Assembly: GCF_000474235.1 (NCBI RefSeq)
Contig: NZ_BATA01000008.1
Span: 1-52,808, forward strand
From: Halarchaeum acidiphilum MH1-52-1
Lineage (GTDB): Archaea > Halobacteriota > Halobacteria > Halobacteriales > Halobacteriaceae
DNA: 52,808 bases
Direction: 5' to 3'
In this document: positions 14,478-17,670 of the stretch, in pieces
Layout: each line of letters starts with the position of its first letter
Position numbering within the stretch: position 1 is the stretch's first letter
The notes under the pieces: generated by a model
Told to the model about the DNA's origin: nothing
Seen by the model: the letters and a program-made list of their open reading frames with translations, nothing else
Databases searched by the model: none
Made by a program: the position numbers and the translations under genes

Positions 14478-15701
<1,224 letters not shown>

Positions 15702-15744: not shown

Positions 15745-15752
15745 TTGAAATA
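15745..15752 (+). promoter_or_regulatory. TATA-like box for the ilv leader transcript
   Basis: TTGAAATA is centred 29 nt before the ATG of a 26-codon leader ORF at 15778, the classic distance for a leaderless haloarchaeal mRNA. It suggests a promoter inside the leuA-ilvB gap, separate from that of leuA. Confidence 0.55.
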
Positions 15753-15777
15753 GGAGCGACGCCTACCGCCGGTACCG

Positions 15778-15858
15778 ATGCGACGAGCGCCCACGCAGGC
15801 GACGCGACCCCGCGTGAGTGTCATCGCCGCGGTCCCGACGTTCATCGTAGGGGCGTAA
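15778..15858 (+). CDS. Candidate ilv leader peptide (leaderless short ORF)
   Basis: A 26-codon ORF whose ATG sits at the predicted transcription start. After a basic N-terminal part, its second half (VSVIAAVPTFIV) carries four Val and two Ile among 12 codons, the end products of the ilv genes, and includes GTA, which appears rare in this G+C-rich window. Its stop codon lies inside the loop and stem of a terminator-like hairpin (15850-15863). That layout resembles leader peptides that control amino-acid operons by attenuation in bacteria. Translation and function are inferred; no homologue could be checked. The next gene, ilvB, starts 79 nt later. Confidence 0.5.
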   Translation: MRRAPTQATRPRVSVIAAVPTFIVGA

Positions 15859-15880
15859 GCCCCCTCTCTCCTCATCCTCA
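15850..15880 (+). terminator. Candidate attenuator hairpin before ilvB
   Basis: A GGGGC/GCCCC stem closed by a GTAA (GNRA-type) loop is followed by a pyrimidine tract, CCTCTCTCCTCATCCTC. It overlaps the stop codon of the leader ORF. The segment GCGCCC at 15786-15791 inside the leader ORF can pair with the 5' arm and the first loop base instead, which would offer an antiterminator. The tract has few consecutive T residues, so termination efficiency is uncertain. Confidence 0.45.
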
Positions 15881-15937
15881 CCGGCCGTTTGCACCGTCCG
15901 TCGAATCCACTAGCGACCGCACCACACACACCACACA

Positions 15938-17670
15938 ATGAGCGAGAGCGAACCCGAACGATCGACCGAACGCGACGCGGAGGAGACGCTGCCGACAGGC
16001 GCGTCGTCCGTCGTGGCCGCACTGGAGAACGCCGGCGTCGAGGCCGCTTTCGGCGTGCAGGGCGGCGCCATCATGCCCATCTACGACGCGCTCTACCAGA
16101 GCGACATCGAGCACGTCACGATGGCGCACGAACAGGGCGCCGCGCACGCCGCGGACGCCTACGGCGCCGTCACCGGCAAACCGGGCGTCTGTCTGGCGAC
16201 GTCCGGTCCCGGCGCGACCAACCTCGTCACCGGCATCGCCGACGCGACATGGACTCGGAGCCGCTGTTGGCCCTCACCGGGCAGGTGGCAACCGACATGG
16301 TCGGCAACGACGCGTTTCAGGAGGCCGATACGACAGGTATCACGCGCCCCGTGACGAAGGCGAGCTACTTCGCGAGCGACCCGGACACCGTCGGTGACAC
16401 CGTCGGCGAGGCCTTCGAACTCGCCCGGAAGGGCCGGCAGGGACCGACGCTCGTCGATCTACCGAAGGACGTCTCGAACGCCGAGGACGTCGCGCGTCCC
16501 GGTCCCGCGGCGGGACCCGAGACGCAGGTCGTCCCGGACGAGGCCGATCCCGAAGCGGTCACCCGCGCCGCGACGGCGCTCGCGAACGCCGAGCGGCCCG
16601 TCATCCTCGCGGGCGGCGGCGTCATCAAGGGGAACGCCTCGGAGGAACTCCGGCAGTTCGCCATCGATCACGGCGTCCCCGTGGTCACGACGATGCCGGG
16701 CGTCGGCGCCTTCGACGAGACGCACGAACTCGCCATGGAGATGGCGGGCATGCACGGCACCGGCTACGCGAACATGGCCGTCACGCACTGCGACGTGATG
16801 CTCGCGGTCGGCACGCGCTTCGACGACCGGCTCACGGGCGGCGTGGACACGTTCGCGCCCGAGGCCGAAATCGCGCACGTCGACATCGACGCCTCGGAGA
16901 TCTCGAAGAACGTCCACGCGGACTACCCCCTCGTCGGCGACGCGAGCACGGTGCTGCGCCAGCTCGACGAGGCGCTGGCCCGCTCGCCGGACACCGACGC
17001 GTGGCGCGACCAGTGCACCCACTGGGAGACGGAGTATCCGATGGACTACGACGCGCCCGAGGACGAACCCCTCAAGCCGCAGTTCGTCGTCGAGGCGTTC
17101 GACGAGGCGACCGACGCGGACACCATCGTCACGACGGGCGTCGGCCAACACCAGATGTGGGCGGTCCAGTACTGGACGTTCACCGAGCCGCGGACGTGGA
17201 TCTCCAGTCACGGTCTCGGAACGATGGGGTACGGTCTCCCAGCCGCCATCGGCGCGAAGGTCGCCGCCCCCGAGAAGGAGGTCGTCTGCTTCGACGGCGA
17301 CGGCTCCTTCCTGATGACCTCGCAGGGTCTCTCGGTCGCGGTCCGCGAGGACCTCGATATCACGGTCTGCATCCTGAACAACGAGGCCGTCGGCATGGTC
17401 CGACAGTGGCAGGACGCCTTCTTCGAGGGCCGCCGGATGGCCTCCGAGTACCCGTGGGGTCCGGACTTCGCGACGCTCGCCGACGCGTTCGGTGCGAAGG
17501 GCTTCACCCTCGACGCGTACGACGACGTCGCCGATACGATCGCGGCGGCTCGCGACTACGACGGCCCGAGCGTCATCGACTGCCACATCGATCCCCGCGA
17601 GGACGTCTACCCGATGGTCGCATCGGGCGGCGCGAACGGACTGTTCGCACTGCAGGAGGAGCACCTATGA
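15938..17670 (+). CDS. ilvB: Acetolactate synthase large (catalytic) subunit (frameshifted)
   Basis: ThDP- and FAD-dependent enzyme of about 577 residues that joins two pyruvates, or pyruvate and 2-oxobutyrate, in valine/isoleucine synthesis. Seen features are the ThDP-activating glutamate region [39 protein letters not shown], the central FAD domain ([24 protein letters not shown]) and the C-terminal ThDP/Mg motif [15 protein letters not shown] with [14 protein letters not shown]. The frame is broken near 16246; one more G restores [16 protein letters not shown]. The acidic N-terminal extension is typical of haloarchaea. The stop overlaps a short ORF (ATGA) that leads into ilvN. Confidence 0.92.

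Follow-up and report, generated by a model that had tools for sequence, protein, structure and literature searches.

A leaderless leader ORF ending in Ile and Val codons at a conserved hairpin precedes ilvB in Halobacteria and is a candidate ribosome-mediated attenuator

The ilvB upstream region of a Halarchaeum genome

The window analyzed here, which is the whole stretch of 52,808 nucleotides, belongs to a Halarchaeum MAG assembly of 2.63 Mb in 165 contigs, to which, among named species, Halarchaeum nitratireducens and H. rubridurum come closest (91% identity in IlvB). It carries leuA and ilvB, and the ORFs located 3' of them were named from recognised sequence and synteny as ilvC-like, leuC, leuD and leuB-like. 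Compared with three Halarchaeum relatives, leuA and ilvB each show a one-base deletion (at 15460-15466 and 16238-16246, respectively), and both deletions are probably assembly errors of the MAG. The following features were identified at the ilvB end of this region:

15745 to 15752, plus strand: TATA-like box TTGAAATA of the ilvB leader promoter, at the same position in congeneric species
15778 to 15858, plus strand: leader ORF of 26 codons encoding MRRAPTQATRPRVSVIAAVPTFIVGA, with a putative leaderless start and the stop codon TAA at 15856-15858; the frame is conserved across Halobacteria
15844 to 15849, plus strand: terminal putative sensing codons ATC GTA (Ile-Val); ATT or ATC followed by GTA is present in nearly all loci
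15850 to 15863, plus strand: hairpin GGGGC-GTAA-GCCCC, conserved in all 108 compared loci
15864 to 15880, plus strand: G-poor, C/T-rich tract after the hairpin, the proposed place of an early transcript end
15889 to 15896, plus strand: downstream box of the GYAYCG type, here TTGCACCG, conserved across loci
15938 to 17670, plus strand: ilvB, acetolactate synthase large subunit, its frame broken by the one-base deletion near 16241

The original prediction had placed a TATA-like box, a 26-codon ORF and a GTAA hairpin with the stop codon in its loop ahead of ilvB, and the coordinates of all three were verified in the window. The TTGAAATA box begins 33 nt 5' of the leader ATG at 15778; the spacing of 29 nt first given for this interval differs by the base from which it is counted. 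The hairpin consists of the arms GGGGC (15850-15854) and GCCCC (15859-15863), and its loop GTAA (15855-15858) holds the leader stop. The pyrimidine tract noticed beyond it is present as a C/T-rich, G-poor stretch that contains no T run. Folded in isolation, the hairpin gave -11.6 kcal/mol (z -3.7, with 0 of 200 shuffles equally good), and the structure of the entire 108-nt leader was not unusual (z -0.2). Since the whole leader folds no better than usual, folding energy by itself is insufficient as a case.

Conservation and reading frame of the leader

Loci of ilvB were gathered from 59 relatives as well as 80 named genomes, leaving 105 after de-duplication, and further loci were added to form the 108-locus set used for the statistics; these 108 loci are related, so that their counts are not independent. 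The same leader element was found at every ilvB locus with sufficient upstream sequence, in about 15 families of Halobacteria. What had been proposed for a single genome, a leaderless Ile/Val leader peptide with its stop in a conserved hairpin before ilvB, is thereby kept across the class, with both the short ORF and the hairpin conserved. In the common layout linked to ilvB, a TATA box is followed after about 33 nt by an ATG that opens an ORF, usually 20-30 codons long, with IVGA or IVGA plus one residue at its end; the stop overlaps the loop of a hairpin. The exact sequence GTAGGGGC lies upstream of ilvB in 85 of the 105 de-duplicated loci; another 17 have variants, mostly GTAGGGGT, also GTAGGGCC, GIIGIIGIIGAPQ before the stop in Natronomonas and a degenerate IRVRAAPAH before the stop, and the last three are either not ilvB or truncated by a contig end. 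Among congeners the element is nearly identical at its end, and the peptide drifts in its N-terminal half.

A strict pattern of the element matched in 161 of 242 genomes of the class, nearly always once per genome, against 3 matches for a reversed control; some of the genomes missed by it do carry the element, when checked, with a slightly different loop. No convincing match was obtained in about 100 genomes from other classes of the phylum, the two matches outside the class having no stop in the loop and looking like chance. An extra match in genome G250 falls inside an SDR gene and was likewise attributed to chance. The element is absent in three genomes of the same order (G034, G036 and G049), which have a divergent IlvB (about 54%). 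In genome G054 (locus L117, G054:C2:397923-397943, minus strand) we observed a second complete Ile/Val leader, MRQLDTDSHTAPASGGAVGARLIVGV followed by a stop, with no ilvB detected behind it; it is possibly the remnant of a duplicated operon.

For a test of the frame, the best TATA hexamer was chosen at each locus and then the first ATG 3' of it, the frame itself not being used. This ATG was in frame with the terminal GTA in 98 of 100 loci, where one third would be expected, and the modal distance between TATA and ATG across the 100 loci was 33 nt, which is the geometry of a leaderless transcript. Stop codons numbered 0 in 2052 codons of the leader frame, and 1 and 20 in the other frames. As in leader-peptide attenuators, a translatable short ORF thus lies upstream of the operon, conserved in frame, start and promoter geometry. 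Judged from these comparisons of sequence the leader frame is under selection, and leader and ilvB presumably belong to one transcript.

The codon content of the ORF changes towards its end. Ile, Val and Leu together rise from about 14% in its upstream part to 25% in the fifth to eighth codons before the terminal Ile and 41% in the four directly before it, as compared with 18% in IlvB itself. GTA occupies the terminal position in 107 of 108 loci yet accounts for 29 of the 4988 Val codons (0.6%) in ilvB of the same loci. It is preceded by ATT in 83 and by ATC in 22 of the 108 loci, ATT representing 7% of the Ile codons in ilvB, and codons ending in A or T fill 54% of the last four positions before GTA versus 12% in ilvB. 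Codons for the end products are thus enriched at the sensing position, both in the gradient from 14 to 41% and in the rare GTA and ATT, and a sensor of tRNA charging would be expected to use rare codons like those at the leader end. If the A site lies within the last four or so codons, the ribosome would cover the GGGGC arm, so the position of these codons matches the reach of the ribosome and fits a direct occlusion of the hairpin. Given these patterns, translation of the leader and its sensing of Ile and Val are very probable.

The hairpin and its possible mode of action

A stem of at least 5 pairs, with loops of 3-9 nt, is present in all 108 loci, and the leader stop overlaps the loop in 96 of them; in the remaining 12 it lies directly past the hairpin. 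The 5' arm shows next to no variation, and the 3' half is often incomplete. Two-sided changes affect the closing pair (C-G, U-A), and GGGCC/GGCCC replaces the usual arms in a pair of related genomes and in one other lineage. With a 5' arm that hardly varies, covariation is modest; the evidence for pairing is nonetheless good, and the 5' arm pairs with its own 3' arm at a mean P of 0.95. We expect, with fair assurance, that the hairpin is the output switch. The GCGCCC inside the ORF, originally suggested as an alternative partner of the 5' arm and hence a candidate antiterminator, did not hold up: it is missing in the congeneric species, and across the 108 loci the arm pairs upstream less (0.61) than with shuffled upstream sequence (0.74). 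No conserved alternative partner, and thus no alternative antiterminator structure, was found among these loci, so direct occlusion by the ribosome is proposed instead.

Past the stem, the first 20 nt are G-poor and C/T-rich, the longest T run does not exceed 4 in 102 of 108 loci, and no poly-U tract follows the hairpin. A GYAYCG box stands about 26-37 nt 3' of the hairpin in 72% of loci versus 4% in shuffles; in other species it is often followed by TTTTC. Between the hairpin and ilvB, about 80-120 nt past the leader GTA, many loci (L011, L026, L071, L092 and others) have a second mini-ORF, uORF2, which is rich in Arg, Thr and Pro and often has YRP or a final YR before the stop; in 78 of 96 loci the stop of uORF2 and the ilvB start overlap in an ATGA. 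Neither uORF2 nor an SD before ilvB is present in the window or its congeners.

We favour, with moderate confidence, the interpretation that the element is a ribosome-mediated leader-peptide attenuator of the ilvB operon common to Halobacteria. The transcript would begin with the leader ATG or very close to it, and the leaderless mRNA would be loaded with a ribosome that translates the mini-ORF. Under a shortage of Ile-tRNA or Val-tRNA, this ribosome would stall on the rare ATT/ATC-GTA or on the preceding Ile, Val or Leu codons; its leading edge would hide the GGGGC arm, the hairpin would be blocked and RNA polymerase would proceed into ilvB. With both tRNAs charged, the ribosome would arrive at the stop in the loop and depart, and the free hairpin would close over the G-poor pyrimidine tract, ending transcription early. 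The stalling, the direction of the switch and the use of the hairpin for termination rather than otherwise are inferred steps of this scheme. Archaeal termination normally depends on T stretches (PMC7237163), and as poly-U is missing here, transcription attenuation is to be taken as the best-fitting mechanism and not as a demonstrated one. In a Haloferax volcanii reporter, 59% of transcripts ended at a hairpin alone and 95% at a T stretch (PMC7237163), which makes a modest attenuator lacking poly-U plausible. Premature termination as the output has, in our estimate, somewhat better than even chances.

The missing U tract would also suit a scheme with the same Ile/Val sensing in which the hairpin acts after transcription, either on mRNA stability, as a 3' end or processing site, or on the access of ribosomes to uORF2 or ilvB. 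The coupling of uORF2 to ilvB by the ATGA overlap speaks for it, as does the conserved GYAYCG box. Against it, the stretch between hairpin and ilvB ranges in length from about 80 to over 300 nt, and no common sequestration is visible since Halarchaeum lacks both uORF2 and the SD; we regard such post-transcriptional action as rather unlikely. Pairing over a long range between the 3' arm and an SD in front of ilvB appeared possible by eye in Halobacterium, and with no SD in Halarchaeum it is not general.

The conserved frame and the good leaderless promoter would also be expected of an upstream ORF or small protein that is expressed constitutively and not regulated by amino acids. The leader peptide is, however, weakly constrained, its synonymous fraction being 0.30 versus 0.24 +/- 0.03 at random (29 independent close pairs), and such weak constraint is expected if the act of reading matters and not the product. 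A drifting N-terminal half together with fixed rare Ile/Val codons and a fixed stop in the hairpin is the reverse of the pattern expected for a functional small protein, which makes this explanation very unlikely. Least probable of all is that the palindrome GTAGGGGC...GCCCCTAC is a DNA operator or a site for an RNA-binding protein, with the ORF incidental: the near-invariant 5' half would agree with it, but the loop varies from 3 to 9 nt, the 3' half is often incomplete so that two-fold symmetry at fixed spacing is lacking, and one codon phase is kept, with the stop in the loop and Ile/Val-rich codons ahead. For the attenuator, in turn, the near-invariance of GTAGGGGC exceeds what a plain stem needs and counts against the model.

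The leuA leader and comparison with known systems

The neighbouring leuA has its own leaderless TATA-ATG mini-ORF (MS...RVLPGH... and a stop) in 57 of 57 de-duplicated loci. In the window it comprises:

14478 to 14549: leuA mini-ORF encoding MSSNDIPGASPGERVLPGHISPQ, overlapping leuA in a different frame
14520 to 14528: GTT CTT CCA within this mini-ORF, a candidate slippage site

The CTT is normally the sole Leu codon of the mini-ORF. Because the ATG of the mini-ORF is out of the leuA frame and the leuA frame contains no ATG or GTG in 34 of 57 loci, a +1 shift would be needed to reach LeuA, and +1 ribosomal slippage could plausibly occur at the near-invariant GTT-CTT-C. Pfeiffer and colleagues noted a start-codon anomaly of leuA2 (HVO_1510) in Haloferax and speculated on slippage, with translation only in the absence of leucine (PMC8305020). 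Their case concerns slippage from an out-of-frame ATG in this neighbouring gene, ilvB not being mentioned there, and the class-wide leuA pattern supports their idea.

A link of the ilvB leader to leuA-Halobacteria, a computed RNA motif of the same lineage and pathway, had been suggested and was not borne out: no Rfam family matched the window or 14 relatives at gathering score, the leuA upstream region included, and nothing relevant appeared at relaxed E-values, in a library that may not include leuA-Halobacteria. A crude screen around trpC or hisG in 29 relatives gave no general leader rich in Trp or His. In two loci of one genus (L145 and L150, positions 1330-1393) the trpC match is closely preceded by a short ORF, MGVWWRV(V/S)GLYLPGTA..., that contains two Trp codons side by side.

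Leader-peptide attenuation has so far been regarded as an invention of bacteria, and was known only from Proteobacteria and Actinobacteria before a survey added Firmicutes (PMC2965389). Our literature search, to which most subscription papers were out of reach, found no published archaeal leader-peptide attenuator. We give about even odds to this being the first archaeal ribosome-sensing attenuator, class-wide, in which the ribosome directly occludes a single hairpin of a leaderless mRNA, and which is paired within one gene cluster with a leuA leader that has a Leu codon and programmed +1 slippage. If so, haloarchaea would govern branched-chain amino-acid synthesis by ribosome sensing, leaderless mRNAs would be able to sense amino acids, and coupled transcription and translation would serve regulation in Archaea despite their eukaryote-like RNA polymerase. 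Haloferax volcanii, for which genetics, Ribo-seq and Term-seq exist, offers a direct test system.

The attenuators of the enterobacterial ilvGMEDA, ilvBN and leuABCD operons have a leader peptide of pathway amino acids with rare sensing codons. Unlike them, the haloarchaeal leader has no terminator/antiterminator pair; its regulatory codons abut the hairpin arm and its stop lies in the loop. Closer in arrangement are the actinobacterial ilvB and ilvBNC attenuators (PMC1262725; Corynebacterium glutamicum, PMC11857589), where, as here, a short Ile/Val/Leu ORF overlaps a hairpin before ilvB; in the actinobacterial ilvB leader it is the Ile, Val and Leu codons that overlap the candidate terminator hairpin (PMC1262725). 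The actinobacterial hairpins are then followed by poly-U, and C. glutamicum has a three-hairpin model (PMC11857589), whereas the haloarchaeal leader has one short hairpin, no U tract and a leaderless TATA promoter, and belongs to another domain of life. Against the model counts a result cited in PMC1262725: changing the codons of the analogous ilvB leader of Streptomyces coelicolor had no effect. Since we saw no sequence relation to the actinobacterial ilvB leaders, and U tract and antiterminator are both missing, we describe the haloarchaeal element as attenuator-like and do not file it in a described family; its likeness to the actinobacterial leaders is likely a convergence in mode of working.
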